The notes below the pieces were generated by a model that saw only the letters and a program-made list of their open reading frames with translations, had not been told where the DNA came from and searched no databases. From Aliarcobacter sp. (GTDB lineage Bacteria > Campylobacterota > Campylobacteria > Campylobacterales > Arcobacteraceae), in contig JAQTXB010000002.1 in the NCBI GenBank assembly GCA_028688995.1, positions 186,001 to 250,000 on the forward strand: a DNA stretch of 64,000 bases, read 5' to 3'. Positions 7,587 to 40,070 of this stretch are shown here, one piece after another (the stretch's first letter is position 1; the number at the start of each line of letters is the position of its first letter). Made by a program: the position numbers and the translations under genes.

Positions 7587-9167
7587 TTAAATTGTTTTTC
7601 GCCTTCTTGGTCTATAATCTTTTTTACGGTTTGTTGATTCTTTTGAATCATTCTCGCGTCTTGGAAATGGTTTTGAAAAAGGTTTTTTAGAGCTGTCTTC
7701 TTCTATTAAATTTCCTTTTAAAGATTTTTCAATAAAAGAGTTAAAAGAATTTCTTAAAATATACGCCTTATCATGGTCAGGAAAAAGTTCAGGAAGTTTA
7801 TATGAAAGCCATAAATATAAAGATATTTTTTTAACCTCATCTTCAACCAAAAGTAAATCCCTTTGAGTTATTGCTTTTTTGGGTAGTGTAATCGATGGTT
7901 TATAATGACAAACTTTTTTCTTAATAACACTTGCAATATAAGCTTCATAAGCTTGTAAAATAATAGTTGATTTTGTTGTTATTGGAGCTTGAGCTAAAAG
8001 ATATTTATCTTCAAGTTTTAAATTAAATCTAGTATCAACAATTTTTGCAGCTTCAATCATAGATGAAATATTTGCAGCTATAAATGGACCTGAAAAATAC
8101 ATATTATCAGCAAAAAACTTTAATACTTTTGTCAAAGAGTTGGTTTTTATGTGAGCTGCAAGTGCTTCCAGCTGATTATTATTTATTTTTACTTTAAAAG
8201 GAGGTTTTATAGTTTTTATTGGACTATCAAATTCAAGTCTAACATGATCTAAAACATCTCTTCTAGTTGCACCTAAATAACCAGCTTCAAAATGTCCATA
8301 ACGCCCTGCTCGACCTGCTATTTGAACTATTTCATTAACTGTAATTTTTCTTTTACTAACACCATCAAATTTTGTATCAGTTGTGAATAATATTGTTTTA
8401 ATAGGAAGATTTAATCCCATAGCAATTGCATCAGTTGCGATTAAAATTTGACTCTTTTTCTCTCTAAATCTTTGAGCTTCATCTCGTCTTACTTCTGGTG
8501 ATAAATTTCCATAAATTACTGAAACTGTATATTTTTTTTGAAGTTTTTGTTTTAACTGTAAAACATCTCTTCTTGAAAAAGCAATCAGTGCTGTCCCATC
8601 TTCTAATTTATCTAAAGATGTCCATTTTGGTAAAACTTTTAATTCATTTTTTCTTTGATGTTTTATTATTTCTAAATCTTCATCAAGATAAGTAGCAATT
8701 CTTTTAACTGCATCAAGAGCATTAACGCTTCCTGTCATAATAATTCTTTTAGCAGGACAACCAATAATTGCATTTACCCAAGCCCAACCTCGGTCACTAT
8801 CATCAAGCATTTGAACTTCATCGATAACTGCCACATCAACATCTAAATCAAAATCTATCATTTCAATTGTTGAGCAAACATGAGCTGCTTCTTCGTGCAG
8901 AATTTGTTCTTCACCAGTAATTAAACTAGCATTTATATTTGAAGCTTTTAAATCTTCATAACCTTCTAATGCCAAAAGTCGTAAAGGTGCTAAATAAAGT
9001 CCAGAATTTGCCTCTTTTAACTTTTGCATTGCATTATAGGTTTTACCTGAGTTTGTAGGTCCAACATAAAATTCTAATTTTCTATTTAGACTTCTAGCCA
9101 GTGGATATAAGGTTTTTAAATCACAATTTAATAGTGATTGTAGTTGTTGTTGCCAATTTTCTTTCAT
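7587..9167 (-). CDS. SUV3-like superfamily 2 RNA helicase
   Basis: The Walker A motif is VGPTNSGKT (about residues 35-43) and the Walker B motif is DEVQM, as in the mitochondrial SUV3 helicase family rather than DEAD-box or Ski2 types. Later motifs are ALIAFSRR, SVIYGNLSPEVRR, LIATDAIAMGLNLP and QIAGRAGRYG. The C-terminus is a basic, Ser/Lys/Arg-rich tail (last 40 residues). Mitochondrial SUV3 works with an exonuclease in RNA decay; a similar RNA-turnover role here is an inference. The start codon is ATG without a clear ribosome binding site, and a TATAAT lies six bases upstream of it. Confidence 0.88.
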   Translation of the reverse strand: MKENWQQQLQSLLNCDLKTLYPLARSLNRKLEFYVGPTNSGKTYNAMQKLKEANSGLYLAPLRLLALEGYEDLKASNINASLITGEEQILHEEAAHVCSTIEMIDFDLDVDVAVIDEVQMLDDSDRGWAWVNAIIGCPAKRIIMTGSVNALDAVKRIATYLDEDLEIIKHQRKNELKVLPKWTSLDKLEDGTALIAFSRRDVLQLKQKLQKKYTVSVIYGNLSPEVRRDEAQRFREKKSQILIATDAIAMGLNLPIKTILFTTDTKFDGVSKRKITVNEIVQIAGRAGRYGHFEAGYLGATRRDVLDHVRLEFDSPIKTIKPPFKVKINNNQLEALAAHIKTNSLTKVLKFFADNMYFSGPFIAANISSMIEAAKIVDTRFNLKLEDKYLLAQAPITTKSTIILQAYEAYIASVIKKKVCHYKPSITLPKKAITQRDLLLVEDEVKKISLYLWLSYKLPELFPDHDKAYILRNSFNSFIEKSLKGNLIEEDSSKKPFSKPFPRRENDSKESTNRKKDYRPRRRKTI

Positions 9168-9272: not shown

Positions 9273-10682
9273 TTGGATTTAATAAATAATTATAATAAAG
9301 CACTTAGCTTTTATAAAACAAAAAAATATAATGAAGCTATAACATTGTGTAATGAAATCCTTCAATTTGAACAAGAACACTATCTTACATGGAATTTGTT
9401 AGGAAATATCTTTTTTACTTTAAATGATTTTGAAAATGCAAAAAATTTTTTTTTAATGACTATAGATTTAAATCCAAAATTTATTGAAGCTTATTTTATG
9501 TTAGGTAATGTTTTATTCTCAATGCATATGTATGAAGATTCAATCAGTATTTGGGAAGAAGCATTGAAAATTGACAATTCTCATTCTATAATATATTCAA
9601 ATATTGCACTATCTTTTATAAAACTTAATAATACAAATAAAGCAATAGAATTTTTGGATTTATCTTTGAATATAAATCCTAATAATGAAGATGCTTATAT
9701 ATATTTATCTGAAATATATAAAAAAAAATCTGATATTATAAACTATAAAAATAATTTACTAAAAGCGATAAGTATCAATGCTAAAAATCCTAAAACTAAT
9801 TTTGATTTATCATATATTTACTTTTTAGAAAGAAACTATATAAAAGCTTATTCTTATTTTGAATCTAGAAAGAAGTTAATTGAAGAAAAACATAACTATA
9901 ACTATTTACCATTTAAAGAATATAACTTCCAAAATATTAAAAATAAATCTTTGCTTATCTATCATGAACAAGGATTTGGAGATAATATTCAATTCATTAG
10001 ATTTTTAAATAATATAAAATGTTCTGAATTATCTGTTGGTATACAAAATAGCTTAAATAAACTTTTTTCATATAATTACCCAAATATTAAATTTAAAGAT
10101 GTAATTCTTGCTCAAGATAAATATGATTATATGCTTCCAATGATGAGTATTCCTTATTTTTTTAAAATATATGATGTAAATGATTCAAAATATTTAAAAG
10201 TTGATGAAAAAGATATATTTGAATTCAGAAATAATTTTTTAAATAATGATAAATTAAATATAGGAATTGTTTGGAGTGGTTCAAAAACAAGTGAAGTTGC
10301 TGAATTAAAAAATTTAAGAATATCAGATTTCGAACCTCTTTTTAATAAAAAATACAATTTCTATTCTCTTCAAATCGATGGAAATGAAGAAATAAAAAAA
10401 TATAAAAATATAAAAATATTAGGAAATAATTTTAAGAATTTTTATGACACTGCCGTTGCGATATGTGCACTAGATTTAATAATTTCTATTGATACCTCAA
10501 TAGCTCACTTAACAGGTGCATTAGGTCAAAAAGGATTCGTATTAAGTAATAAAAATCAATTTGATTGGAGATGGGATAATGAAAATCATAAATCAATTTG
10601 GTACAATAGTATAAAAGTATTCAAATATTTTGATATTGGAGATGCGATTAAAATGATAAAAGAGGAAATAAATGAATTGTGA
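9273..10682 (+). CDS. TPR-repeat glycosyltransferase, FlmG-like
   Basis: Residues 1 to about 190 form tetratricopeptide repeats (for example LTWNLLGNIFFTLNDFENAK, then AYFMLGNVLFSMHMYEDSI). The C-terminal half is a GT-B-like glycosyltransferase domain with HEQGFGDNIQFIRF, GIVWSGS and the late SIDTSIAHLTGALG and DWRW blocks. This architecture matches the Caulobacter FlmG type, in which the TPR part binds flagellin and the C-terminal domain transfers pseudaminic acid. Location two genes before the flagellin fits that role. The start is TTG with AAAGGA upstream. The end overlaps trmA by 11 bases. A T9 run at 9446-9454 could slip. Sugar and target are inferred. Confidence 0.82.
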   Translation: MDLINNYNKALSFYKTKKYNEAITLCNEILQFEQEHYLTWNLLGNIFFTLNDFENAKNFFLMTIDLNPKFIEAYFMLGNVLFSMHMYEDSISIWEEALKIDNSHSIIYSNIALSFIKLNNTNKAIEFLDLSLNINPNNEDAYIYLSEIYKKKSDIINYKNNLLKAISINAKNPKTNFDLSYIYFLERNYIKAYSYFESRKKLIEEKHNYNYLPFKEYNFQNIKNKSLLIYHEQGFGDNIQFIRFLNNIKCSELSVGIQNSLNKLFSYNYPNIKFKDVILAQDKYDYMLPMMSIPYFFKIYDVNDSKYLKVDEKDIFEFRNNFLNNDKLNIGIVWSGSKTSEVAELKNLRISDFEPLFNKKYNFYSLQIDGNEEIKKYKNIKILGNNFKNFYDTAVAICALDLIISIDTSIAHLTGALGQKGFVLSNKNQFDWRWDNENHKSIWYNSIKVFKYFDIGDAIKMIKEEINEL

Positions 10683-11796
10683 ATATTTTGGTAAATGTGG
10701 CTCTTGTGTTTTATATGAAAAATCGTATGAAGAACAATTAAATTTTAAATTACAAAGAGAAAAAGAGAGATTTTTAGACTTTACAACTATGGATTTTGAC
10801 ATCATAAAAAGTGAAGAAAAAGCTTTTAGAAATAGAGCTGAATTTAGAATCTGGTGGGAAAAAGATAAAAATGGAAAAGAGATTTTATCTTATGCCATGA
10901 ATGATTTTAATAAAAACATTTTAGAAATAAACTCATGCCAAATTGTAAGTTCACATATCCAAGAAATCATGCCAAAACTTTTAGATTTATTGATGAGCGA
11001 ATTAACTCTTTCATACAAACTGTTTACTGTTGAATTTTTAGGAAGCACAACAAAAGATATGCTTGTGACTTTGATTTATCACAAAAAACTGGATGAAGAG
11101 TGGAATGAATTAGCAAAACAAATTGAAAAAAAGTTAAATATTAAAATCATGGGAAGAAGTAGAAAACAAAAAATAGTACTTAGTTCTGAAGCAATAAATG
11201 AAACATTAACTATTAATAACCAAAACTTCAGATTTGCCTACCAAGAAGGTGGATTTACACAACCAAATACAAATGTAAATATTCAAATGATTGAATGGGT
11301 TTTAAACAATATAGAAACTTCTTCAAATGATTTATGTGAACTTTATTGTGGTGGTGGAAATTTTACAATTCCCTTATCAACTAAATTTAATAAAGTTCTA
11401 GCAACAGAAATTTCAAAAACATCTATAAAATCAGCTTTAAAAAACTGTGAATTAAACAATGTAAATAAAATTCAATTTATAAGAATGAGTGCCGAAGAGT
11501 TCGTACAAGGGCTACAAGAAGTACGAGTCTTTAATAGATTAAAAGATGTAAATTTAAAAGATTATAAATTTGATACTATATTTATGGATCCTCCCAGATC
11601 AGGACTTGATGATACAACAAGAGCACTAGCAAAAGATTTTGAACAAATTATATATATTTCATGTAATCCTGAAACTTTACATAGAGATTTAAAAGAGCTT
11701 ACAAAAACCCATGAAATCGTAAGATTTGCATTGTTTGACCAATTTGCATATACTAACCATATTGAAAGTGGAGTAATCCTAAAAAAGATTAGATAA
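10672..11796 (+). CDS. trmA: tRNA (uracil-5-)-methyltransferase
   Basis: Methylates U54 of tRNA to ribothymidine. It has 374 residues, normal for TrmA. The N-terminus has CEYFGKCGSC, the SAM site LCELYCGGGNF is near residue 225, FMDPPRSG is the catalytic-loop motif, and ISCNPETLHRD contains the nucleophilic Cys. It starts inside the end of the TPR-glycosyltransferase gene (11-base overlap) behind GAGGAAAT, so the two are probably co-transcribed. The function is unrelated to flagella, and the neighbourhood may be incidental. Confidence 0.95.
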   Translation: MNCEYFGKCGSCVLYEKSYEEQLNFKLQREKERFLDFTTMDFDIIKSEEKAFRNRAEFRIWWEKDKNGKEILSYAMNDFNKNILEINSCQIVSSHIQEIMPKLLDLLMSELTLSYKLFTVEFLGSTTKDMLVTLIYHKKLDEEWNELAKQIEKKLNIKIMGRSRKQKIVLSSEAINETLTINNQNFRFAYQEGGFTQPNTNVNIQMIEWVLNNIETSSNDLCELYCGGGNFTIPLSTKFNKVLATEISKTSIKSALKNCELNNVNKIQFIRMSAEEFVQGLQEVRVFNRLKDVNLKDYKFDTIFMDPPRSGLDDTTRALAKDFEQIIYISCNPETLHRDLKELTKTHEIVRFALFDQFAYTNHIESGVILKKIR

Positions 11797-11810
11797 TTTA
11801 ATCTAATTTT
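11785..11810 (+). terminator. probable weak terminator overlapping the trmA stop
   Basis: ATTAGAT at 11788-11794 pairs with ATCTAAT at 11801-11807 across a six-base loop and is followed by TTTT. The stem is AT-rich and includes the last codons and stop of trmA. It would end the trmA transcript before the flagellin promoter, but the stem is weak. Confidence 0.5.
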
Positions 11811-11970
11811 AAGAAATGGTATGTAATACTTTCAATATAAAGATTAGGGGTCGATGGATTCCGAAGAGATGAAAAGATTTTCCTCTCTATGCTTGAGACT
11901 TTAAAAAAGAAACAAGAAGGTTATAGGCTGTGAGTCAAATCACAATGTGTCATAATTAAAAGGATTTATT
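11811..11970 (+). promoter_or_regulatory. flagellin promoter and structured 5' leader
   Basis: TATAAA at 11836-11841 is the best -10 candidate, giving a leader of about 120 bases. The leader holds AGAGA(T)GAAAA pairing with TTTTC(C)TCTCT (11865-11888) and a second hairpin TGTGA / TCACA (11929-11944). Two ANGGA motifs are present: ATGGA at about 11854-11858 and AAGGA next to the start codon. Campylobacter flagellin mRNA is known to be bound by CsrA at such GGA sites, with FliW as antagonist; CsrA control here is an inference. No match to sigma-28 (TAAA-N15-GCCGATAA) or sigma-54 (GG-N10-GC) spacing was found. Confidence 0.5.
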
Positions 11971-12816
11971 ATGAGAATTAATACTAACGTTTCATCATTA
12001 ACTGCTCAAGATGCAGCACAAAATACTAGTAAAACTTTAACTACTTCTTTAGAAAAGTTATCTACTGGTTTAAGAATTAATAAGGCTTCTGATGATGCTT
12101 CTGGTTTGGCAATTGCTGATAAACTTAGAACTCAAGCAACTTCTATCAATCAAGGTATCGCAAATGGTAATTCAGCTGTTTCTTTACTTCAAATTGCTGA
12201 TAAATCAATGGCTGAGCAATCAAATATTCTTGATACAATCAAAGCTAAATTAGTTCAAGCAAATACAGATACTACTTCTTCTGATGGTAGAGAGTCTATT
12301 AGAAAAGATATTAACAAACTTTTAACTCAATTAGATAATATTGCAAAACAAACAAACTATAATGGTACGACTTTATTACAAATGAGTTCAACAAGTACTT
12401 CTGCGTCTTCTGGATTAGCATTCCAAGTAGGTGAAAAATCAGCAGATACGATTACTAATGGATCAATCAAATCTAATACTTCAGGTCTTGGTGTTACATC
12501 ATTAAAAGGTCTTACAGCTAATGGATTAACACAAACAATTGCAGGAGCGCAACAAACAAAAATTGATGCTGCAATTGGAACATTAAATGGATATAGAGGG
12601 GATATAGGTTCTACTCAAAATCAAGTTGAATCTGCGGTTAGAAACTTAATGACTCAAGCTACAAATGTAAAAGCTGCTGAGTCAATTATCAGAGATGTTG
12701 ATTATGCTGCTGAGTCTGCAAACTTCAACAAACAAAACATTATTTCTCAAGCTGGTTCATATGCAATCAGTCAAGCAAATGCTGTTCAACAAAATGTACT
12801 AAGATTACTTCAATAG
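11971..12816 (+). CDS. flagellin, short form
   Basis: Filament subunit of the flagellum. Both conserved ends are present. Residues 1 to about 135 carry MRINTNVSSL, LSTGLRINKASDDASGLAIAD and the first long helical region. The last 90 residues carry RDVDYAAESANFNKQNI and end in QQNVLRLLQ. The variable middle (about 135-190) is very short and rich in Ser and Thr, which are potential glycosylation sites. It has 281 residues, against about 500-570 for Campylobacter flagellins. A clear AAAGGA precedes the ATG. It is the only flagellin in the window and is flanked by two types of flagellin glycosyltransferase. Confidence 0.97.
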   Translation: MRINTNVSSLTAQDAAQNTSKTLTTSLEKLSTGLRINKASDDASGLAIADKLRTQATSINQGIANGNSAVSLLQIADKSMAEQSNILDTIKAKLVQANTDTTSSDGRESIRKDINKLLTQLDNIAKQTNYNGTTLLQMSSTSTSASSGLAFQVGEKSADTITNGSIKSNTSGLGVTSLKGLTANGLTQTIAGAQQTKIDAAIGTLNGYRGDIGSTQNQVESAVRNLMTQATNVKAAESIIRDVDYAAESANFNKQNIISQAGSYAISQANAVQQNVLRLLQ

Positions 12817-12829
12817 TATTTTTTAGAGG

Positions 12830-12853
12830 AAGTAGAGATTTTTATCTCTACTT
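12830..12853 (+). terminator. rho-independent terminator after flagellin
   Basis: The stem AAGTAGAGAT pairs with ATCTCTACTT (10 bp, loop TTTT) and is followed by TTTC. It lies 14 bases after the flagellin stop codon. Its distal arm overlaps the stop end of the convergent maf gene (12848), so it may also slow transcription arriving from that side, although the minus-strand T run is poor. Confidence 0.88.
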
Positions 12854-14899
12854 TTCTACTTTTTCTAGAAACCCAATATAATCATTTATAAGTTGTTCTA
12901 TCTGTTTTACAAAGATTTTCTTTATTTTCTCTATATTCTTATTTTCATTTTTTACTTTTATATCATTAAAATGATAACTCAAATAAGGAAATATTATTTG
13001 TAGATAATTTCGTAAAATCTGAGCAATAGAACTTTTTATAAATTCATAATCTGTAATTAAAGATATTAGACTAATAACTGATTTAAAAAATTCATCATAA
13101 TCTTTAAAATCATTTTGAATAAAATCTACAAATTCTTTTTCTAAAATATTTTTTAAAAATCTAATTTCTTCACTTATATTTTCTTTAGATTCGATGCATA
13201 ATGATGTTGATGAACATTCTTGGAATAAATCCAATAGATCTTTATTCTTTAAATTTATTCTTTCAAAGCTACTAATTTTAATCTCTTCTACTCTTTTTGG
13301 AATAGAATTCTCAAAATAAGCTCCATGAGTCGATAAATTATATACATTTACATTTACATTTTTCATTGCCATAAATTTTTCTACATATTTAATTGAAGTA
13401 TGATATAAAGCTGTTGTATAAACTTCTTTTTCTAAATTCCCTTTAACTTTTATAGTCCCTTCTCTCAAACCAAAAAAATCTCTACTCTTATTCTCTTTTT
13501 TTAAATCATATTTACTTGATGCAAATGTTTCACCTGTAGAATGAGAATTACCAGTATTTTGATTTAATGCCATATCCAATCCTACTAAATATAAATCTTT
13601 TATATTCATATTTAATAATAAGAATAATGTAATTTCACCAACACTAAAACCAGTTACTGCATAATTATCTTTATGAAAAGGGATAAATACTTCATATAAA
13701 AAAAGATTACTCTGTTTAAATTTCTTTAGTATTCTATTATCAGTTATAACCGATGCCATGATTATAGTATCACTATTAATTAATGAAACATTATAATCAT
13801 CAAATTGATTTTTATTTAATTCTTCAAACTGTTCATCTAATGTAAATATCATATTTATTTTTACATTATTACGTAATAATTTTTTATATGCAGCTCCAAT
13901 TGTTACAATAAAAAACTTATCTTGATTTATTCTTATCCACTCAATATTTTCATCTAAAGATGGTCCTGCAGCTATAAATAGAATAGGAATATTTTCAAAG
14001 ATATTTATTTTATTTTTTACTTTATTTATCAATAGAGTTCTATATTTACTCTCTAAAACTTTTGTAGCTCTATTTATAAAAGTGTATAAATACCTATTAT
14101 AATCATATGAAGTAGGTTTAATACTCATAAAAGAAGAAAGTATTCTATCTATGTATTCATGAATATTTATTCCTGTTGTAGAAAACTTTATTAAATAATT
14201 ATCCAAAGGATTAATACTTAGAAAATTGAAAATCTTTTTTTCTTCATCTATAACTTCATCCATTATAGAAAAAATTACTCCATTTTTTTTAGCAAGAACA
14301 GTATAATCAACAGTAAATAAGGACAATCTAAATATTTCTAAATTTCTTTCACAAACTAAATATAAATCTGCATCTATCTTTGTAGCAATTTTAGGAATAT
14401 GTCTACCTAAAAGAGTACCTATAAATATAAATTTACTAATTCTTTTTAATCTTTTCTTCTTATGTTCTAAAAAATCTTTTAAAATATTTGTATAAGAATA
14501 AACATCTTTTTGAGTCAATTTACTCAATTGAATTAAATCTTGAATATCAAATTTCTGATTATCATCTATTTCTATTGGGTTTCTTATTGTAAAAATACTT
14601 TCTAACATAAAAATGGAATCTTTTTCATCAAATTCAACACACTTAATCAAATCATCATTTGTTCTTTTTGGTATTTTATTATATAAATATCGATTATTAA
14701 TTAAATCATATATGTCAAACTCTCCATTTTCTTGCACAAAATCCAAAGCATATCTTTCTTTATAACTGCCATCTTCAATCATCCTTGATAATTCATCTAT
14801 TCGATGAAATAAATCATTATCATATTCACTTAAAAAAGCTAAATTTCCAAGAAAAGTTGTTGTTAATGCATTTTGTAATTGTATTTGTGCATCATTCAT
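12848..14899 (-). CDS. maf: Maf-type flagellin glycosyltransferase (DUF115 / MAF_flag10)
   Basis: Motility accessory factors attach nonulosonic acids such as pseudaminic or legionaminic acid to Ser/Thr of flagellin in the cytoplasm. The central domain has FIAAGPSLDENI (about 308-319), TLDEQFEE, VTGFSVGEI (about 415) and LVGLDMALN followed by HSTGE (about 437-457). It has 683 residues, normal for the family. It is the last gene of a four-gene operon with the SIS, FkbM and Gfo/Idh genes and faces the flagellin gene tail to tail. Whether it transfers pseudaminic acid or the product of the neighbouring operon is not known. Confidence 0.9.
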   Translation of the reverse strand: MNDAQIQLQNALTTTFLGNLAFLSEYDNDLFHRIDELSRMIEDGSYKERYALDFVQENGEFDIYDLINNRYLYNKIPKRTNDDLIKCVEFDEKDSIFMLESIFTIRNPIEIDDNQKFDIQDLIQLSKLTQKDVYSYTNILKDFLEHKKKRLKRISKFIFIGTLLGRHIPKIATKIDADLYLVCERNLEIFRLSLFTVDYTVLAKKNGVIFSIMDEVIDEEKKIFNFLSINPLDNYLIKFSTTGINIHEYIDRILSSFMSIKPTSYDYNRYLYTFINRATKVLESKYRTLLINKVKNKINIFENIPILFIAAGPSLDENIEWIRINQDKFFIVTIGAAYKKLLRNNVKINMIFTLDEQFEELNKNQFDDYNVSLINSDTIIMASVITDNRILKKFKQSNLFLYEVFIPFHKDNYAVTGFSVGEITLFLLLNMNIKDLYLVGLDMALNQNTGNSHSTGETFASSKYDLKKENKSRDFFGLREGTIKVKGNLEKEVYTTALYHTSIKYVEKFMAMKNVNVNVYNLSTHGAYFENSIPKRVEEIKISSFERINLKNKDLLDLFQECSSTSLCIESKENISEEIRFLKNILEKEFVDFIQNDFKDYDEFFKSVISLISLITDYEFIKSSIAQILRNYLQIIFPYLSYHFNDIKVKNENKNIEKIKKIFVKQIEQLINDYIGFLEKVEK

Positions 14900-16023: not shown

Positions 16024-17076
16024 TTACTCCTTTTCTCTAGATATACAATAAAGAACTGTACTTAATCCCATATCCTCATGAACTCGCAGATACATATCAT
16101 ATGTTGGTTCTATAGATTTTATCAAAAGAGGTATTTCCCATAAATCTTCTGGTTTATGATAAAGACAAATCGCTAAATTTGGTTTATATTTCTTGATAGT
16201 TTTTTGTGCACCTAAAATAGCCTCTTTTTCTGCACCCTCTATATCCATTTTTATATAATTAGGATTTGAATTTAGAATTACATTATCGAGAGATACAACA
16301 AATACATTTGTATCTGAAGATTCAACTAAGGCTGCACTAGAATTAATACCTTTATTTGAAAAATTCAATATTTTATTTGAAGAATATACTCCAGCAGGAT
16401 ATACGAAAAAGTTTGTTTTAGGATAAGCTCTATTCAAGAGTTCTAATTGATTATTTAATTTATTCAAATTTTTTATATCTGGCTCAAAAGATATACAATA
16501 ATTTACATTTTTATTGTAGGTCATTAATTTATCTATTGTATCACCTGTATATGCACCACAATCTATAAAATTTATTTCTGATAAATTATCTAAAATAGGA
16601 ACATCAGTTGGAAAATATTCGCTATCAGAGGGATCAATATAATATTTCATATCTAATGTTTTTCTTAAATTTATAATTTGTTCTAAAATATTTTTACTTT
16701 TTTTATCAAATAAAAGGGCTTTAAATTCTAATAACTTTGATTCATCTAACATTTTATATCTGTCTTTTACAAGCCATAAATAATTACTATTTGATAATTC
16801 TTTTAATATATTTGGCATTTTTTTAACAGAATTTGTAAAACTAATTATATTTTTAAAACCTTTTTGAAGAAGTTGATTTTCAATTTTAACTGAATCTTGT
16901 AGCACTGAAATATAGATTATAGTTTCTTTAGGAATTTGCTCTATTTTTTTTATGGGTATATCAAATAACATAATCAAAGGAGAAAAATCATCTATAAAAA
17001 AATCAACTTTTCTATCAAGACATTTATAAAATATTTTTCCAAAAGCTCCTGCGCCATAAATAGCAAGCTTATTCAT
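16024..17076 (-). CDS. FkbM-family methyltransferase with N-terminal Rossmann-like domain
   Basis: The C-terminal half (about 165-350) is an FkbM methyltransferase: INFIDCGAYTGDT (SAM site), SFEPDIKN, and YIKMDIEGAEKEAILGA with the conserved Asp and Glu. The first 100 residues contain YGAGAFGK, a nucleotide-binding-like fold often fused to FkbM enzymes in surface-sugar clusters. It probably O-methylates a sugar or acyl hydroxyl of the flagellar glycan (inferred from context). The start overlaps the SIS gene end by 8 bases. Confidence 0.84.
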   Translation of the reverse strand: MNKLAIYGAGAFGKIFYKCLDRKVDFFIDDFSPLIMLFDIPIKKIEQIPKETIIYISVLQDSVKIENQLLQKGFKNIISFTNSVKKMPNILKELSNSNYLWLVKDRYKMLDESKLLEFKALLFDKKSKNILEQIINLRKTLDMKYYIDPSDSEYFPTDVPILDNLSEINFIDCGAYTGDTIDKLMTYNKNVNYCISFEPDIKNLNKLNNQLELLNRAYPKTNFFVYPAGVYSSNKILNFSNKGINSSAALVESSDTNVFVVSLDNVILNSNPNYIKMDIEGAEKEAILGAQKTIKKYKPNLAICLYHKPEDLWEIPLLIKSIEPTYDMYLRVHEDMGLSTVLYCISREKE

Positions 17077-17638
17077 TTGATTCTTCTATAAAATATGTAT
17101 ATAACATATGGTCTAATATCATATGAATATCTTCAACTAATCCATATTGACCTTTTTCTGTTTGGACGTGAAAACTTATATCAGATTTTTGTTTCAGAAT
17201 ACCACCATCAAAACCAGTGATACCAATAATTTTTGCTTCTTTTATTTTCCCATACTCAACTGCTTTTAAAATATTTAGAGAATTACCACTACATGATATA
17301 GCGATTAAAACATCTTCTTTTTTAATTTTTTCTTTAACTTGTTCGTAAAAAATATTCTCATAACCCATATCATTAGCAATAGCAGTACAAACAGGAACAT
17401 TATCAGCAAGACTTTCTATATTGAAATTTCTAATATTTCTTCTTTTTAATCCCACTCCTAAATCATTAACCATATGAGATGCTGTTGCTGCACTTCCTCC
17501 ATTGCCAATGATATATATCTTACCACCTTGCTTATTTGAAGCGTCAAGCGTATTAACTATTTCTTGTATAGTTTTATAATCAATTTCATCAACTAAAAAC
17601 TTTAATTTAGACTTATATTTTTCTACAAAATTCTGCAT
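17069..17638 (-). CDS. SIS-domain sugar isomerase, GmhA-like
   Basis: It has 189 residues, the length of sedoheptulose-7-phosphate isomerase. The phosphosugar-binding motif GNGGSAATASH is at 45-55, and AISCSGNSLNIL is the second phosphate loop. A His in VEDIHMILDH matches the region of the catalytic His. By eye, the catalytic Glu that follows the first loop in E. coli GmhA is an Asp here (MVNDLG), so activity or substrate may differ. It is the first gene of the maf operon. Together with the HldE-like gene at 31931 and the nucleotidyltransferase at 33349 it could feed a heptose-like branch. Confidence 0.82.
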   Translation of the reverse strand: MQNFVEKYKSKLKFLVDEIDYKTIQEIVNTLDASNKQGGKIYIIGNGGSAATASHMVNDLGVGLKRRNIRNFNIESLADNVPVCTAIANDMGYENIFYEQVKEKIKKEDVLIAISCSGNSLNILKAVEYGKIKEAKIIGITGFDGGILKQKSDISFHVQTEKGQYGLVEDIHMILDHMLYTYFIEESNE

Positions 17639-17698
17639 TGACTTACCACTTTTAAAGTTATTTTAGCTATTATATAATAGTTATACTTAGGAGAAAGA
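17639..17698. promoter_or_regulatory. bidirectional promoter built on a 14-bp palindrome
   Basis: CTATTATATAATAG at 17667-17680 is a perfect palindrome. It gives TATAAT on the plus strand (17673-17678) and TATAAT on the minus strand (complement of 17669-17674). It is the only region that can start the divergent operons at 17638 (minus) and 17699 (plus). The plus-strand GTG start is preceded by TAGGAGA. Because the two boxes overlap, RNA polymerase could occupy only one direction at a time. Confidence 0.7.
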
Positions 17699-19093
17699 GT
17701 GCGTAAAATTGAGGACATATATTTTGATAATTTTGATGAAGCATTAAAAATAGCTGAAGAACAAAATGTATTTGGTCCATATAATAATTTACAAATATGC
17801 TACTATGATGGTCCTATAAGAAAAAAAAATTTAAAAAATTTAATTCATTTACCTCTCAATAATTTTTCAGAAACTCTTATTCACTTAGGAACTAGAATTC
17901 CTACAAAAATTATTCATGATAATAAAAATTTAGTAGAGTTCGAACTAAATAATTTTTTAGAAAAAAAAGAAAAGATTCATTTAGATTTAAAAAATAAAAT
18001 TCTAAAAAAACATCTTAATTTTAATGAAAAACTTCGTATTTACATTAGTGCAGAATATGGTGGAAAAGTTGTTTTAAGAACTTATAAATTTTTATCTAAA
18101 TTATTTAATGAAAATGGCTTTGATGTCTATTTTGATATTAATGATGAATTAACTCTAATGGATGATTATAGAAGATCAAAATCTATCGAAGAATTTAATC
18201 CTCATTTAACATTTAATATTAACAGACTAAGAAATGAACAAATACATCCTGATACTTTTAATTTTATTTGGTTTATGGATCCAACTTTAATATTATTTGA
18301 TGATTCATCCCTTAATCTAAGAAAAAGAGATTATATATTTTATATAGGAAATGAAATATATAGTGCTTTAAAAAATAAAAAAATTCCAGAAGAAAAAATC
18401 ATACACCAATTTTTAACTCCTGATTATAATATATTTAAATTTTCTGGAAATATAAAAAAAGAGAATAAAGTTATATTTGTTGGACAAAATTATTTTGAAG
18501 TAATTGAACCTACTAAAAGTTATAAAAACCATCCTGTTGTAAATGATCTTACAAATTTATTTAATAATAATGAAATTACTTTTGAAAAATTAAATGAATT
18601 AAAAGAAAAATATTCATCAACAATTAAAAGAGATGAACATATAGAAGTATTTATATATCCAGCTGTTGTTCGACAAGAAATTGTCAAATGGATTTGCCAA
18701 CAAGATAAAATTAAAGTCGAAATATACGGTGAAGGTTGGAATAATATAGTTGAAACTAAAACTTTCTCAAAAGGAGTGATTAAATCAGAAGAAAAACTAA
18801 ATGAAATCTATAATAGTGCAAAATACTCATTAGTTGTACACTCAAGTTTTATGTACATTCCTAAATTATTTGAAAGTAGTGCAGCAAATTGTATCCCTTT
18901 AGTTTATAGAGGAATTACTACATTAGACGATTTTAAACATAATAAAAATGTTTTAACTTTTTCAGATAAAAAAAGTCTTTATAACTCTTTAGATAAAAAG
19001 ACGGAAGAATCACCCATAGAAATAAGTAAACAAATTTCAACAAAATCCATTTTAGATAAAATATTATCAATTATTCAAAAGGAATTCAAATAG
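17699..19093 (+). CDS. glycosyltransferase, CgeB / group 1-like
   Basis: A 464-residue protein. The C-terminal third looks like a GT-B nucleotide-sugar domain: VEIYGEGWNN, the NEIYNSAKYSLVVHSS segment, then PKLFESSAANCIPLVYRG, which matches the end-region of CgeB-like glycosyltransferases (E near the nucleotide site, then an AxGxxPL-like turn). The middle has RIYISAEYGGKVVLRTYKFL and NFIWFMDP. The start is GTG with AGGAGA upstream. It is the first gene of the long plus-strand operon. An A9 run at 17821-17829 lies early in the gene. Donor and acceptor are unknown. Confidence 0.72.
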   Translation: MRKIEDIYFDNFDEALKIAEEQNVFGPYNNLQICYYDGPIRKKNLKNLIHLPLNNFSETLIHLGTRIPTKIIHDNKNLVEFELNNFLEKKEKIHLDLKNKILKKHLNFNEKLRIYISAEYGGKVVLRTYKFLSKLFNENGFDVYFDINDELTLMDDYRRSKSIEEFNPHLTFNINRLRNEQIHPDTFNFIWFMDPTLILFDDSSLNLRKRDYIFYIGNEIYSALKNKKIPEEKIIHQFLTPDYNIFKFSGNIKKENKVIFVGQNYFEVIEPTKSYKNHPVVNDLTNLFNNNEITFEKLNELKEKYSSTIKRDEHIEVFIYPAVVRQEIVKWICQQDKIKVEIYGEGWNNIVETKTFSKGVIKSEEKLNEIYNSAKYSLVVHSSFMYIPKLFESSAANCIPLVYRGITTLDDFKHNKNVLTFSDKKSLYNSLDKKTEESPIEISKQISTKSILDKILSIIQKEFK

Positions 19094-20082
19094 TGAAAAA
19101 AATATTAATTGTAGGAAGTAACTCTTTTTCTGGTTCAAATTTTGTAAATAATCAATTGAATGAGGATTATGAAGTATTTGCAACAAGTAGGTCATCAGAA
19201 TTAAACAATGTATTTTTACCATATAAAAAGAATTCAAGATTAAATAATCTTCATTTCTCTCAACTTGATTTAAATAAAAATTTAGATGAATTAATGAATT
19301 TAATAAAAAAAGAAAAAATCTCTCAAATAGTAAACTTTGCTGCACAAAGTATGGTAGGACAAAGTTGGGATACACCTGAACATTGGTATATGACAAACAC
19401 TGTTTCAACAATAAAATTTCATAATCAATTAAAAAATTTAGATTTTTTGGATAAATACGTTCATATTTCTACTCCAGAGGTATATGGTTCATGTGAGGGT
19501 CTAATCAAAGAACATAGAAATTATAATCCAAGCACTCCTTATGCAACATCAAGAGCAGCTGCTGACATGAGTTTAAAAAATTTTTATGACACTTATAATT
19601 TCCCAGTAGTTTTTACAAGAGCTGCAAATGTATTTGGAGAACATCAACAACTATATAGAATCGTACCTAAGGCTATTATTTCTTTTTTAATTAAAGAAAA
19701 AGTACCTTTACATGGTGGAGGAAAATCTATTAGATCATTTATTCACATGGATGATGTATCAAAAGCAACAAACCTAATATTGAATAATGGAAATATAGGA
19801 GATATTTATCATATATCAACCAAACAAAATATTTCAATTAAATCATTAGTTGAAATGATTGCTAAACAATTAAATATACCTTTTGAAGAAAACGTAGAAA
19901 TTACAGAAGATAGAAAAGGAAAAGATAGTGCATATTTACTGGATAGTAGTAAATTAAGAGAATCACTTAATTGGCAAGACACAATATCTTTAGAAAAAGG
20001 TATTGAGAAAACTATTAGTTGGGTGAAAGATAATTTAGAAGAACTTTTAAAACAACCCATGAATTATATACATAAACAATAA
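19093..20082 (+). CDS. NAD-dependent epimerase/dehydratase, 4,6-dehydratase-like, with Arg in place of the catalytic Lys
   Basis: Extended SDR of the nucleotide-sugar type: VGSNSFSGSNF at the NAD site, NFAAQSMVGQSWDTP (as in dTDP-glucose or GDP-mannose dehydratases), and STPEVYGS. The YxxxK motif reads YATSR at residues 150-154 (codon 19552-19554 is AGA), so the catalytic Lys is replaced by Arg. RSFIHMDDVSKA is the usual C-terminal block. The start is GTG at 19093, overlapping the preceding TAG by one base, with AAAGGA upstream. It probably acts on an NDP-sugar of the flagellar glycan. Confidence 0.83.
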   Translation: MKKILIVGSNSFSGSNFVNNQLNEDYEVFATSRSSELNNVFLPYKKNSRLNNLHFSQLDLNKNLDELMNLIKKEKISQIVNFAAQSMVGQSWDTPEHWYMTNTVSTIKFHNQLKNLDFLDKYVHISTPEVYGSCEGLIKEHRNYNPSTPYATSRAAADMSLKNFYDTYNFPVVFTRAANVFGEHQQLYRIVPKAIISFLIKEKVPLHGGGKSIRSFIHMDDVSKATNLILNNGNIGDIYHISTKQNISIKSLVEMIAKQLNIPFEENVEITEDRKGKDSAYLLDSSKLRESLNWQDTISLEKGIEKTISWVKDNLEELLKQPMNYIHKQ

Positions 20083-20090
20083 GGTAAAAA

Positions 20091-21029
20091 ATGAAAAATA
20101 TATTAATAACTGGTGGAACAGGCTACGTTGGAACACTATTAACAGAAACTTTACTAAAAGAAGGTCATAAGATTACTGTTGTTGATACAATGTGGTTCGG
20201 TAACTATTTAGAGGAACATAAAAATCTAACTTTAATTAAAACTGATATTTTAGATATAGATTCTATTCCAATGGAAGGAATTGATACAATTTTTCATCTT
20301 GCAAATATTGCAAATGACCCAACAGGAGATTTAAATTCTAAACTTACATGGGAAGTAAATGTATTAGCTTCAAAATTATTAGTAGAAAAAGCAATAAAAA
20401 GTGGAGTTAAACAGTTTATCTATGCAAGTAGTGGAAGTGTTTATGGTGTTAAAGAAGAAGATCAAGTAACGGAAGATTTAGATTTAATACCAATTAGTGA
20501 TTACAATAAAACTAAAATGATTAGTGAAAGAGTATTTTTAAGTTATAAAGACCAGATAAATACTGTAATTATTAGACCTGCTACAGTTTGTGGTTATAGT
20601 AAAAGAATGAGACTAGATGTATCTGTAAATATGCTTACGATGCAAGCTTTAACAAATAAAAGAATTACCGTGTTTGGAGGAAATCAAACAAGACCAAATA
20701 TACATATACAAGATATGGTTAATGTATATTTACATTTTTTAAAAAATAATACTCTAACAGGAATATATAATGCTGGTTTTGAAAATATTTCTATTTTGGA
20801 TATAGCACAGAAAGTTGCTAATAAAATAAATGCTGAAATTATTGTTAGTGAATCTAATGATCCAAGGTCATATAGACTTAACTCAGATAAACTTCTTCTT
20901 ACAGGATTTAAACCTCAATTTACAGTTCAAACTGCAATTGATGAAATTAGTGAAAATTATAATAAAGGTATTTTAAAAGATGAAGATAAATATTATAATT
21001 TGAAAGTAATGAAAGAATTAGGATTATAA
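20091..21029 (+). CDS. NAD-dependent epimerase/dehydratase
   Basis: Extended SDR with TGGTGYVG at residues 7-14, FHLANIANDP, YASSGSVYG and an intact YNKTK catalytic motif. The C-terminal part has RPNIHIQDMVNVY. It has 312 residues. Similar proteins epimerise or reduce nucleotide-activated sugars. It is spaced 8 bases after the previous SDR and ends 1 base before the methyltransferase gene, so co-expression is clear. Substrate unknown. Confidence 0.86.
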   Translation: MKNILITGGTGYVGTLLTETLLKEGHKITVVDTMWFGNYLEEHKNLTLIKTDILDIDSIPMEGIDTIFHLANIANDPTGDLNSKLTWEVNVLASKLLVEKAIKSGVKQFIYASSGSVYGVKEEDQVTEDLDLIPISDYNKTKMISERVFLSYKDQINTVIIRPATVCGYSKRMRLDVSVNMLTMQALTNKRITVFGGNQTRPNIHIQDMVNVYLHFLKNNTLTGIYNAGFENISILDIAQKVANKINAEIIVSESNDPRSYRLNSDKLLLTGFKPQFTVQTAIDEISENYNKGILKDEDKYYNLKVMKELGL

Positions 21030-21030
21030 A

Positions 21031-21690
21031 ATGGGTATAGAAATTGATTTATTAGAAAATTATCCTAAAACAAAAAGAGATTTAAAACAAAGAGCTAATG
21101 AAAAAACGCAAGAAGATAGAAATATAGCTAGAAAGTTTGGTCAAGATTTTTTTGATGGTGATAGAAAACATGGTTATGGTGGGTTTAACTATATGAGTAG
21201 ATTTTGGCAACCTGTTATACCCACATTTATAAAACATTTTAATTTAAATGAAAATTCTAAAGTTTTAGATGTAGGTTGTGCAAAAGGTTTTATGCTTTTT
21301 GATATGAAAGAAGCTATTCCAAATATAACTATTGAAGGAATAGATATCTCTTCTTATGCCATTGAAAATGCAAAAGAAGAAATAAAACAATTTTTAAGAG
21401 TTGGAAATGCAAAAGAACTTCCTTATGAAGATAATTCATTTGATGTTGTAATTTCAATAAACACTATTCATAATCTAGAAAAAAAAGAATGTGCAAAAGC
21501 ATTACAAGAAATTCAAAGAGTTAGTAGAGGGAAAAGCTTTATTACAGTTGATGCATATAGAAATGAAGAAGAAAAAGAAGCTATGTATGCTTGGAATCTA
21601 ACTGCTAAAACTATTATGAGTGTGGATGAATGGATTGCTTTTTTTGAAGAAGTTGGATATACAGGTGATTACTATTGGTTCATCCCTTAA
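21031..21690 (+). CDS. class I SAM-dependent methyltransferase
   Basis: A 219-residue methyltransferase. SAM motif I is VLDVGCAKGFML (about 77-88), the acidic strand-2 motif is IEGIDIS, and ELPYEDNSFDVVISINTIHN is motif IV of the Methyltransf_11 type. The first 60 residues are charged and include RKFGQDFFDGDRKHGYGG, a leader seen in methyltransferases of glycan clusters. It lies between the SDR and the E1 alpha gene. It probably methylates a sugar or sugar-linked group; the position is unknown. Confidence 0.84.
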   Translation: MGIEIDLLENYPKTKRDLKQRANEKTQEDRNIARKFGQDFFDGDRKHGYGGFNYMSRFWQPVIPTFIKHFNLNENSKVLDVGCAKGFMLFDMKEAIPNITIEGIDISSYAIENAKEEIKQFLRVGNAKELPYEDNSFDVVISINTIHNLEKKECAKALQEIQRVSRGKSFITVDAYRNEEEKEAMYAWNLTAKTIMSVDEWIAFFEEVGYTGDYYWFIP

Positions 21691-21699
21691 AGAGTATAG

Positions 21700-22677
21700 A
21701 TGAATAATATAGATATTAAAGAATTAAAACAAATTTATTTAACTGCTTATAAAATAAGAAATACTGAAGAAAGAATTGCAAATAAATATCATGAACAAGA
21801 GATGAGATGCCCTACACATTTAAGTATAGGACAAGAATTAATTCCTGCTATTTATGCTCAATTTGTAGATAATTCAGATTATGCAGTAAGTACCCATCGA
21901 GCACATGCACACTATCTTGCAAAAGGTGGGGATTTAAATGCAATGATTGCTGAGATTTATGGAAAAAGAACTGGTTGTTCACATGGAATGGGTGGTTCAA
22001 TGCATTTAATTGATAAAAGTGTTGGATTTATGGGAAGTACAGCAATTGTAGGTGGTACTATACCAATTGGGGTAGGTCTTGCATTATCTATTCAAATAAA
22101 AAATGAAAATAGAATAAGTAGCATTTTTTTAGGTGATGGAGCAACAGAAGAAGGAGTCTTTTATGAGTCTGTTAATTTTTCTGTAGTAAGAGAACTTCCT
22201 GTAATTTTTATATGTGAAAATAATTTATATTCTGTATATTCAAATTTAGAAGTAAGACAACCTAAAAATAGAAAAATCTATGAACTTGTAAAAGCAATGG
22301 GTATAAAATCTTCACATGCAGATGGTTATGATATTGAAGATTCGTATTGTAAATTAAAAGAAGCACTTAATTATGTAAAAAATGAAAAAAAACCATTTTT
22401 TATTGAGCTGGATACGTATAGATTTAGAGAACATTGTGGTCCAAATTTTGACAATAATATTGGATATAGAGAGATTAGTGAATATGAAGAGTTTTTAAAA
22501 AAAGACCCTTTGTTAAGATTAAAAGAATATCTTGAAACTAACTCTTCAAAAAAGCTTTTAGCTGAAGAAGAAAATATCATAAACAAGAATATAGAAGAAG
22601 CATTTACTTTTGCTAAAAATTCTCCTTGGCCTCAATACAAAGATATAAATACTTATCTTTATAAGGATAATAAATGA
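21700..22677 (+). CDS. thiamine-diphosphate dehydrogenase E1 alpha-like subunit
   Basis: Resembles the alpha subunit of pyruvate or acetoin dehydrogenase. The cofactor motif runs from GDG at 145-147 to NN at 174-175. Other family blocks are STHRAHAHYLAKGGD, CSHGMGGSMHL and the IVGGTIPIGVG segment. It has 325 residues. The beta subunit follows with a 4-base ATGA overlap. No lipoyl E2 or E3 gene is near. In this sugar operon it may transfer a two-carbon acyl unit from pyruvate to a keto sugar, as the unrelated single-chain YerE does in yersiniose synthesis (inference). Confidence 0.87.
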   Translation: MNNIDIKELKQIYLTAYKIRNTEERIANKYHEQEMRCPTHLSIGQELIPAIYAQFVDNSDYAVSTHRAHAHYLAKGGDLNAMIAEIYGKRTGCSHGMGGSMHLIDKSVGFMGSTAIVGGTIPIGVGLALSIQIKNENRISSIFLGDGATEEGVFYESVNFSVVRELPVIFICENNLYSVYSNLEVRQPKNRKIYELVKAMGIKSSHADGYDIEDSYCKLKEALNYVKNEKKPFFIELDTYRFREHCGPNFDNNIGYREISEYEEFLKKDPLLRLKEYLETNSSKKLLAEEENIINKNIEEAFTFAKNSPWPQYKDINTYLYKDNK

Positions 22678-23726
22678 GAAGCTTAACTTTTGCACAAGCA
22701 ATAAATGAAGCATTAGAAACAGCTCTTAGAATTGATGAAACAGTAATAAAGTATGGACTAGGTGTTACTGATCCATATGGTGTGTTTGGAACAACAAAAA
22801 ATTTAGAAGACAAATTTGGTTCTTCAAGAGTTTTTGATATGCCTACATCTGAAAATGGAATGACTGGTGTTGCAATTGGTGCAGCAATTGGTGGATTAAA
22901 ACCTGTAATGACACATCAAAGATTAGACTTTTTCCTTCTCGCTATGGATCAAATTGTAAATAATGCTGCTAAATTCCATTTTATGTTTGGAAAAGAAGTT
23001 AATGTACCAATAACAATTAGATTAATTATTGGTCGAGGATGGGGACAAGGTCCAACCCATGCTCAAAGTTTACAATCTTGGTTTGCCCATATTCCAGGTC
23101 TTAAAGTAGTAATGCCAACAACAGTAAAAGATGCAAAAGGTTTATTACTTTCAAGTATATTTGATCCAAATCCTGTTATCTTTTTAGAACATCGATGGCT
23201 TCATAATATGATAGGAGAAGTTGATGAAAGTGATGATTTTAGAGTAGAAATAGGAAAAGCTGAAATATTAAAAGAAGGTAAAGATATAACTATTGTTTCT
23301 ATGTCATATATGAGTATAGAAGCAATTCATGCAGCTAAAGAACTTGAAAAATATAATATTTCATGTGAGATTATAGACTTAAAAACCATAAGCCCTATTG
23401 ATTGGAATACTATTCATAAATCAATTGAAAAAACGAAAAGATTAATTGTTTTAGATACAGCTAGCGAATTTGGTGCAATAGGAAATGATATTGTTGCAGA
23501 TATTTCTATGAAATATTTTAGTGTTTTAAAATCTGCTCCAAAAATCATTGCTTTACCAAATATTCATGCACCAACGAGTTATTCTTTAACTAAAGATTAT
23601 TACAAAGATGCAAAAGATATTATTCTTGAAATATCAAAAATATTTAATATGCAAATTAATTTGTATAATATGATGAATAAAGTTCATCATGATATACCAG
23701 GAGAATGGTTTAAAGGACCATTTTAA
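22674..23726 (+). CDS. thiamine-diphosphate dehydrogenase E1 beta-like subunit
   Basis: Partner of the alpha subunit encoded immediately upstream. SENGMTGVAIGAA holds the Glu that activates the thiamine ring. RGWGQGPTHAQSLQSWFAHIPGLKVVMP and the FLEHRWLHN block are typical of E1 beta chains. The transketolase C-terminal domain follows from about residue 200 (KDITIVSMSYM). It has 350 residues, a little longer than usual; the extra tail ends in PGEWFKGPF. The start overlaps the alpha stop, which suggests 1:1 translation. Confidence 0.87.
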   Translation: MRSLTFAQAINEALETALRIDETVIKYGLGVTDPYGVFGTTKNLEDKFGSSRVFDMPTSENGMTGVAIGAAIGGLKPVMTHQRLDFFLLAMDQIVNNAAKFHFMFGKEVNVPITIRLIIGRGWGQGPTHAQSLQSWFAHIPGLKVVMPTTVKDAKGLLLSSIFDPNPVIFLEHRWLHNMIGEVDESDDFRVEIGKAEILKEGKDITIVSMSYMSIEAIHAAKELEKYNISCEIIDLKTISPIDWNTIHKSIEKTKRLIVLDTASEFGAIGNDIVADISMKYFSVLKSAPKIIALPNIHAPTSYSLTKDYYKDAKDIILEISKIFNMQINLYNMMNKVHHDIPGEWFKGPF

Positions 23727-23745
23727 AATAAAATTAGGAGAAATT

Positions 23746-24417
23746 TTGAAAGCAAAAGAAGATCAAAACCAATGTCAATTTGATAATTATGAAGAAAATA
23801 AATTTTCATTTGGACCTTTTTCATCTCATATTTTAAGAGATGACCCTAGACATATAGTTTTTATGTTGTCTAGATATAAATTCGTTTCAAAAATGCTAGA
23901 TGGTAAAAAACGAGTTGTTGAAATTGGATGTGGAGATGCAATAGGAATGCCTATTATTACTCAAACAGTTGATTATGTTTTAGGATGTGATTGGGAAGAG
24001 TTATTAATGGAAGGTAATAAAAAAAGAAATAAAAATCTAAATTGTGATTTTTTCACATGCGATATTACAAATACTATTCCTGATATTTCAAAAGGTAAAT
24101 TTGATGCTGCCTTTTCATTAGATGTAATTGAACATATTCCAAATGAAAATGAACATAAATATTTTGAAAATATTACAAAAGCATTAAAAGAGGATGGAGT
24201 ATTTATTATTGGAACACCAAATATAACAGCTAATCAATATGCTTCTGTGTTAAGTAAAGCTGGTCATATAAATTTACATTCACATAAAACTTTAAAAGAA
24301 AAAATGGAAAAATATTTTAAAAATTGTTTTTGTTTTTCAATGAATGATGAAATGGTACATACAGGATTTGGACCAATGGCTCATTATATTTTTGTTATGG
24401 GTGTTGGGCTGAAATAA
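23746..24417 (+). CDS. class I SAM-dependent methyltransferase
   Basis: The SAM motif is VVEIGCGDAIGMPI, followed by LGCDWEE and FDAAFSLDVIEHIPNENEH; the VIEHI block is typical of Methyltransf_11/UbiE-like enzymes. I chose the TTG at 23746, four bases after AGGAGA and just behind the E1 beta stop, giving 223 residues. An ATG at 23689 in frame would start inside the E1 beta gene with no ribosome binding site. It is the second of three methyltransferases in the operon. The end is directly joined to the next ATG. Confidence 0.82.
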   Translation: MKAKEDQNQCQFDNYEENKFSFGPFSSHILRDDPRHIVFMLSRYKFVSKMLDGKKRVVEIGCGDAIGMPIITQTVDYVLGCDWEELLMEGNKKRNKNLNCDFFTCDITNTIPDISKGKFDAAFSLDVIEHIPNENEHKYFENITKALKEDGVFIIGTPNITANQYASVLSKAGHINLHSHKTLKEKMEKYFKNCFCFSMNDEMVHTGFGPMAHYIFVMGVGLK

Positions 24418-25578
24418 ATGATAATTAAGCAAAATAACAAATGTGCAGTTTGTTCCAATACAGTTGAAAGTATTATTAAATTACCTAACTTTCCTTTAAC
24501 TGGAATATTTTCAGATAAATTTGATGCAAATTTTCACACTTTTAATCAAGAACTGCAATATTGTGATAATTGTAAACATTGTCAATTAAAGAATATTATT
24601 GATCCTAATATTTTGTATAGTGATCAATATTCTTTTCTTACTTCAAATAGTTCAAATTCTAGAAATTCAACAAGTAAATTTATTAATTTTATAAATAAAA
24701 ATTTACATAATATCCATAGTATTTTAGAATTTGGGTGTAATGATTTATATTTTCTCAAACAATTTGAGAAAGAAGGAAAAGAATGTATAGGGATAGATCC
24801 CATTTTAAATAAAATCAACAATGATTCAACAATTAAAGTTATTGCAGATTATGTTGAAAATATAGATTTTAGTAATTATTTATTAAAACCTCCCTGCTTA
24901 ATTTGTTCTCAACATACAATTGAACATATACCAGATATAAGAAAAACTTTAGAAAAATTAAAAAGTATTTCAAATGATGAAACAGTTTTTGCTTTTGAAT
25001 TTCCTAATTTTGATTTGTTAATTCAAAATAGAAGATTTGACCAAATTTTTCATGAACATGTTCACTATTTTAGTTTAGACTCTTTTTTTTATCTTCTAAA
25101 AGAATTATCATTTGAAGTAATTGATTATGAGTTTAATTTTGATAAATGGGGAACTATTTATATTCTTTTTAAAAATTCTAAAAATAATAATTTTTCTCAT
25201 AAAACTAAGAATTTAAATAAAGAAGTAATATTAAATGCCTATAAAAATTTTAAAAGTAGTATTGAGAACTGTATAGATATATTAGAACAATTTAAACAAG
25301 AAGAAAAATATGCTTATGGCGCGTCACTGATGTTACCAAGTTTAAATTATCATTTTAACAATTATTTAACCAAATTAAATTGTATTTTAGATGATGATGA
25401 AAATAAAAAAAATAAAAAATATATCAATATAGATATTGACATAGACATTGAAAAAAACAATGTTCAATATGATAAATCTGTAATTCTAATTACAGCATTA
25501 GAACACACAAAAAATATAAGTAAAAAATTAATTAATAAAAATACTAAAAATATTATAGTGCCAATAAATATATACTGA
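24418..25578 (+). CDS. sugar C-methyltransferase-like protein (zinc-binding N-terminus)
   Basis: It has the three-part build of NDP-hexose C-methyltransferases such as TylCIII. First comes an N-terminal zinc knuckle with CAVCSN and YCDNCKHCQL. A SAM domain follows (ILEFGCNDLYFL, then SQHTIEHIPD). The signature IFHEHVHYFS contains the His implicated in catalysis in this family. The C-terminal domain (about 260-386) is the usual Methyltransf_14-like fold but is more divergent and Asn/Lys-rich, with a repeated ID stretch. It would add a methyl branch to a keto sugar. It follows the previous gene with no gap. Confidence 0.83.
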   Translation: MIIKQNNKCAVCSNTVESIIKLPNFPLTGIFSDKFDANFHTFNQELQYCDNCKHCQLKNIIDPNILYSDQYSFLTSNSSNSRNSTSKFINFINKNLHNIHSILEFGCNDLYFLKQFEKEGKECIGIDPILNKINNDSTIKVIADYVENIDFSNYLLKPPCLICSQHTIEHIPDIRKTLEKLKSISNDETVFAFEFPNFDLLIQNRRFDQIFHEHVHYFSLDSFFYLLKELSFEVIDYEFNFDKWGTIYILFKNSKNNNFSHKTKNLNKEVILNAYKNFKSSIENCIDILEQFKQEEKYAYGASLMLPSLNYHFNNYLTKLNCILDDDENKKNKKYINIDIDIDIEKNNVQYDKSVILITALEHTKNISKKLINKNTKNIIVPINIY

Positions 25579-25589
25579 GGATAGAAAAA

Positions 25590-26354: not shown

Positions 26355-26380
26355 AAAAATTAAATTCACTAAGGTTTAAA

Positions 26381-28067: not shown

Positions 28068-28086
28068 TAAAAAGGAATAATTTTTT

Positions 28087-37188: not shown

Positions 37189-37191
37189 TAT

Positions 37192-39020: not shown

Positions 39021-40064
<1,044 letters not shown>

Positions 40065-40070
40065 TTACAT

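Follow-up and report, generated by a model that had tools for sequence, protein, structure and literature searches.

Why should one flagellin gene lie between two different classes of flagellin glycosyltransferase, and do both enzymes act on its product? This question is raised by the window analysed here, a stretch of 64,000 nucleotides on contig C22 of an Aliarcobacter genome of 2.95 Mb (G000). The original prediction described a single flagellin gene flanked by a TPR-bearing glycosyltransferase (TPR-GT) of the FlmG type and by a Maf, with two sugar pathways nearby. The features concerned are as follows.

7587..9167, minus strand: helicase-like gene, assigned by inspection of the sequence; conserved boundary of the TPR-GT site
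9273..10682, plus strand: TPR-GT of 469 aa with a TTG start (Pfam TPR matches; structure model)
10672..11796, plus strand: TrmA-type tRNA/rRNA uracil-5 methyltransferase (PF05958, E 2.6e-129)
11971..12816, plus strand: flagellin of 281 aa (PF00669 and PF00700)
12848..14899, minus strand: Maf-type flagellin nonulosonate transferase (PF01973, 7e-28, and PF20157; PDB 5mu5)
17069..34056, no single strand assigned: heptose-type sugar island
34046..41054, minus strand: pseudaminic-acid pathway (ATP-grasp, PseG-like, PseI, PseF, PseC, PseB, PseG)

The flagellin locus and its two glycosyltransferases

The TPR-GT, flagellin and Maf genes were all intact at the positions predicted for them. The flanking arrangement held for Maf, which lies directly downstream of the flagellin gene, convergent to it and 31 bp apart, but not fully for the TPR-GT gene, which lies 1.3 kb from flagellin with trmA in between, a gene that the original prediction missed; the TPR-GT and TrmA genes overlap by 11 bp, and a gap of 174 bp separates TrmA from flagellin. 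Similarly, the flagellin is the sole one at the locus but not in the genome, since a second, unlinked flagellin, 46% identical to it, is encoded on contig C1; a further, weaker match is FlgL-like. The genome encodes exactly one TPR-GT and one Maf, and the absence of significant sequence similarity between the two (best E 0.20) agrees with their description as unrelated classes.

The TPR-GT and Maf genes have GC contents of 21% and 22%, respectively, and those of helicase, TrmA and flagellin range from 27 to 33%. A chimeric or contaminant contig was ruled out, as genes on both flanks are up to 99% identical to those of G021, a genome of the same genus. The Rfam search of the window yielded no RNA families. 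A long ankyrin-repeat-like protein, identified by eye at 5590-7524, adjoins the helicase gene and is kept across the family.

Searches of the TPR-GT against Pfam (E up to 0.001) and NCBIfam returned TPR-type and related repeat models only, with no GT41 sequence model among the Pfam matches at this threshold, and the GT domain by itself gave zero matches to PDB sequences. Folded as a single sequence, the GT domain reached a pLDDT of about 25, and it was resolved once relatives from viral contigs were aligned; the resulting model (42 such relatives; pLDDT 91.9, pTM 0.87) predicts a TPR superhelix (residues ~1-205) followed by a C-terminal GT-B-type domain (~205-469). Foldseek placed SPINDLY and OGT at or near the top, and VIA-align aligned OGT chains over the whole model, with full-length matches for both OGT and SPINDLY; these scores refer to the whole model and are largely driven by the TPRs, with a whole-chain rmsd of about 12-19 A. 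Across the 43 proteins, 16 positions are invariant (e.g., E232, Q233, D237, R243, D407, H412 and W434), and G234, W443 and Y444 are further conserved residues, so that conservation covers the C-terminal domain too. A pattern scan over named genomes gave one match only, a weak one in Chloroherpeton. The confident model points to an OGT/SPINDLY-like architecture, that is, TPRs joined to a GT-B fold.

Distribution of TPR-GT genes and their link to flagellin

Among 31 genomes of the genus (the window's own and G001-G030), only that of the window carries a TPR-GT at the flagellin locus. In most of the genus relatives examined, the order is helicase, TrmA, flagellin and Maf, with helicase and TrmA directly adjacent. 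The helicase-like protein is 59-99% identical across the family and adjoins TrmA where the TPR-GT is absent, TrmA is a conserved neighbour of flagellin among relatives, and a flagellin with a nearby Maf is kept throughout the genus. Other TPR-GTs of the genus (G004, G018, G022, G023 and G025) are 34-37% identical to that of the window, and all four that were looked at belong to the type linked to type I secretion systems (T1SS).

The order helicase, TPR-GT, TrmA and flagellin was found in G000 and in two other genera (G085 and G102), and in a third genus (G076) a TPR-GT occurs with an FkbM-type gene and TrmA at the end of a short contig. The TPR-GTs of these three are close kin of the window's (41-48% identical), a class to which the 397 genomes sampled across the phylum added no further member. 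Together with that of the window, they group in a single clade (SH-aLRT 99), separate from the TPR-GTs linked to T1SS, and 13 residues invariant in this clade are rare elsewhere. The pairing of the two enzymes at flagellin is real and recurs among related bacteria.

In the helicase and TrmA trees, the window nests inside its genus and the other TPR-GT carriers branch outside its group. As the nearest genus relatives also lack the TPR-GT, simple vertical retention is not favoured, and the gene may have returned to this site through recombination, or it may have been lost many times. In one relative, an AAA_14/DUF4143 ATPase gene (L063:8734-10020) lies between TrmA and flagellin, indicating that this spot takes up insertions. 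The locus flagellin shares 91% identity with its counterpart in G012, where no TPR-GT was found; therefore, no obvious co-adaptation of flagellin and TPR-GT is seen.

The premise that usually only one of the two enzymes is needed proved weak: Maf was present in 68 of the 71 TPR-GT-carrying Campylobacterota genomes of other families, and flagellar islands with several glycosyltransferases are not new, as cases in Clostridium (PMC13317340) and in Aeromonas (PMC7874193) have been documented or predicted. Owning both classes is common, and the linkage is what stands out. In G051, a flagellin gene has a TPR-GT gene 373 bp away, which belongs to another branch and encodes 743 aa. The seven genomes checked in family f2 (six from g56 and one from g59; loci L241-L254) all pair a flagellin with a following Maf at one locus and its paralogue with a following TPR-GT, at a spacing of 5-103 bp, at another; the two paralogues within one genome are 61-70% identical, and among the g56 genomes the Maf-linked flagellins are 91-97% and the TPR-GT-linked ones 87-96% identical. 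In four genomes of family f7, the TPR-GT lies between PseC and PseF in the pseudaminic-acid operon, and three of these also have a Maf within the stretch examined. On the TPR-GT tree, the flagellin-linkage label requires four changes compared with 7.8 when shuffled, and at least two of the four are forced by well-supported branches. These changes, with the G051 and f2 cases, indicate that flagellin linkage of TPR-GTs recurs, although, with several long branches in the tree, it is unsure how many times it arose.

The other large TPR-GT clade is found next to ABC/HlyD genes of type I secretion and to giant ORFs of 2.3-5.4 thousand aa (L040, L046-L055, L078 and L080), and its members are candidate glycosylation partners of secreted adhesins. 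One of them, on an Arcobacter plasmid (L078), shares 83-84% identity with the T1SS-linked TPR-GTs found in the window's genus, from which the window's family is taken to be Arcobacteraceae. On an Azospirillum plasmid, a TPR protein likewise adjoins T1SS genes.

Sugar pathways and the possible division of labour

Both pathways expected near the locus, a pseudaminic-acid and a heptose-type one, are encoded in the window. For the former, PseB, PseC, PseF, PseI and PseG (40071-41054) scored over curated NCBIfam cut-offs, and the PseG-like gene at 35197-36135 scored under its cut-off. The presence of an ATP-grasp gene and this second, diverged PseG-like gene inside the operon (34046-36135) suggests a modified pseudaminic acid. 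NeuB was found in 18 of the 19 genomes tested, with one copy each in the window's genome and in the seven f2 genomes; with its one NeuB, the window's genome encodes pseudaminic acid as its sole nonulosonate.

The heptose-type island encodes a GmhA-like SIS protein, SDRs, a split transketolase, radical-SAM enzymes, a nucleotidyltransferase-heptokinase fusion and an HddC-like nucleotidyltransferase, where the GmhA-like, fusion and HddC-like assignments all scored under NCBIfam equivalog cut-offs. The fusion (31931-33352) joins a cytidylyltransferase-like domain to a PfkB heptokinase domain, the two domains of HldE in an order reversed from that in E. coli HldE. Pairs of E1 dehydrogenase/split transketolase genes and two radical-SAM/SPASM enzymes occupy 21700-30888 of the same island. 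Of 104 family genomes, 14 have the heptose kinase marker. It tracks the TPR-GT of the flagellin locus weakly: the clade at that locus has it in two of its four genomes (Fisher p 0.087), and three of five have it once G051 is added (Fisher p 0.017), a grouping chosen post hoc. The heptose pathway as an obligate partner of the TPR-GT was rejected, since neither G085 (99% complete) nor G076 (74% complete) yielded the kinase.

The analysis establishes the gene identities, the predicted fold, the conserved linkage, the separation of the clades and the sugar pathways; flagellin as the acceptor, the donor and the division of labour are inferred. On balance, the TPR-GT probably acts on flagellin as a dedicated cytoplasmic O-glycosyltransferase of FlmG-like architecture, working beside Maf. 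Its TPR superhelix would hold flagellin ahead of export, and its GT-B domain would put a sugar on Ser/Thr in the central region of flagellin, where residues 111-200 of the locus protein include 25 Ser/Thr; the neighbouring Maf would add a nonulosonate, pseudaminic acid, as its standard job. This reading is based on the same-site gene order in G000, G085 and G102, the TPR-GT with TrmA in G076, the separate clade, the linkage in G051, f2 and f7, the OGT/SPINDLY-like model and the FlmG precedent. Conserved linkage and separate clades support, at the level of sequence, the view that both enzymes would glycosylate flagellin. The carriage in one of 31 genus genomes and the TPR-GTs that elsewhere lie by secreted giant proteins speak against it, and because TrmA is interposed and the helicase-TrmA-flagellin order is conserved without the TPR-GT, the proximity could be hitchhiking.

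The TPR-GT and Maf plausibly differ in donor or site, and that both act on this one flagellin with different sugars is a guess. We doubt the particular form in which pseudaminic acid is attached by Maf, and a nucleotide-activated heptose derivative from the adjacent island by the TPR-GT as a flagellin O-heptosyltransferase. A special case of the preferred reading, which we regard as a substantial possibility though short of even chances, is that CMP-pseudaminic acid serves as the donor for both enzymes, which would differ in their acceptor, either a site or a flagellin paralogue; on paralogues, Maf would modify the locus flagellin, and the TPR-GT the locus or the unlinked one. The single NeuB of G000 and of each f2 genome with both classes, the TPR-GT inside the f7 Pse operons, the use of pseudaminic acid by FlmG (PMC7591256) and the f2 arrangement of one class beside each paralogue are consistent with this case, but the extra sugar pathway in the window's island and the position of the linked flagellin between both enzymes argue against it.

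It is rather unlikely that the TPR-GT modifies another protein and owes its position to an accident of a permissive helicase/trmA site. Such an accident would fit the conservation of the site without the TPR-GT, its A+T-rich sequence and the proximity of other TPR-GT clades to type I secretion systems and to giant ORFs; however, Maf is equally A+T-rich, this is the genome's only TPR-GT and has no adjoining T1SS, the flagellin-linked clade is separate, and the linkage is also found in G051 and f2. Sequential action, with the first sugar added by Maf and extended by the TPR-GT, is improbable: the GT2 enzyme Fgi-1, needed for the extension of pseudaminic acid in Aeromonas (PMC7874193), provides a precedent, but it is a short enzyme without TPRs, and FlmG, OGT and SPINDLY, which resemble the TPR-GT in architecture, target protein side chains. 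We give hardly any weight to a functional pairing of the TPR-GT with TrmA in translation, as suggested by the 11-bp overlap and the order conserved in three genera, since TrmA adjoins flagellin in many genomes that lack a TPR-GT, and elsewhere TPR-GTs mostly occur without TrmA next to them.

Comparison with known glycosylation systems

In the open-licence literature, we found no description of an OGT-like TPR-GT linked to a Maf, nor of a split of glycosyltransferase classes between flagellin paralogues. Bacteria with both classes beside flagellin are a natural test case for the way in which acceptors and donors are divided among cytoplasmic O-glycosyltransferases; in the f2 genomes, which have one class per paralogue and only one NeuB, acceptor specificity can be tested directly.

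The window's Maf has PF01973 with PF20157, is linked to flagellin and is accompanied by a nonulosonate pathway in the genome. It shares its domains, flagellin adjacency and a nearby nonulosonate pathway with the Maf proteins of Aeromonas and Campylobacter (PDB 5mu5); it is ordinary for this family, and no unusual features were found. A comparable island is that of Clostridium sporogenes, with a Maf and a pair of TPR-bearing GT2 enzymes (PMC13317340), so that a Maf and another TPR-bearing class are predicted at one flagellar island with two sugars; their catalytic domains are GT2, whereas that of the window's TPR-GT is GT-B/OGT-like. Eukaryotic OGT and SPINDLY (GT41) join a TPR superhelix to a GT-B domain as in the predicted TPR-GT model, but the TPR-GT is much smaller, shares about 10-16% identity with them and has no GT41 Pfam match. 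In Caulobacter crescentus, the TPR domain of FlmG binds flagellin, and FlmG is required for flagellin glycosylation with pseudaminic acid (PMC7591256). FlmG and the TPR-GT are likened by architecture, an N-terminal TPR part with a C-terminal GT-B-type glycosyltransferase, and both systems have a pseudaminic-acid pathway in the genome and a link to flagellin. FlmG is the larger, with 596 aa and a TPR part of ~310 aa compared with 469 aa and ~205 aa, and it comes from a bacterium that has no Maf (PMC7591256), whereas the locus analysed here has a linked one.
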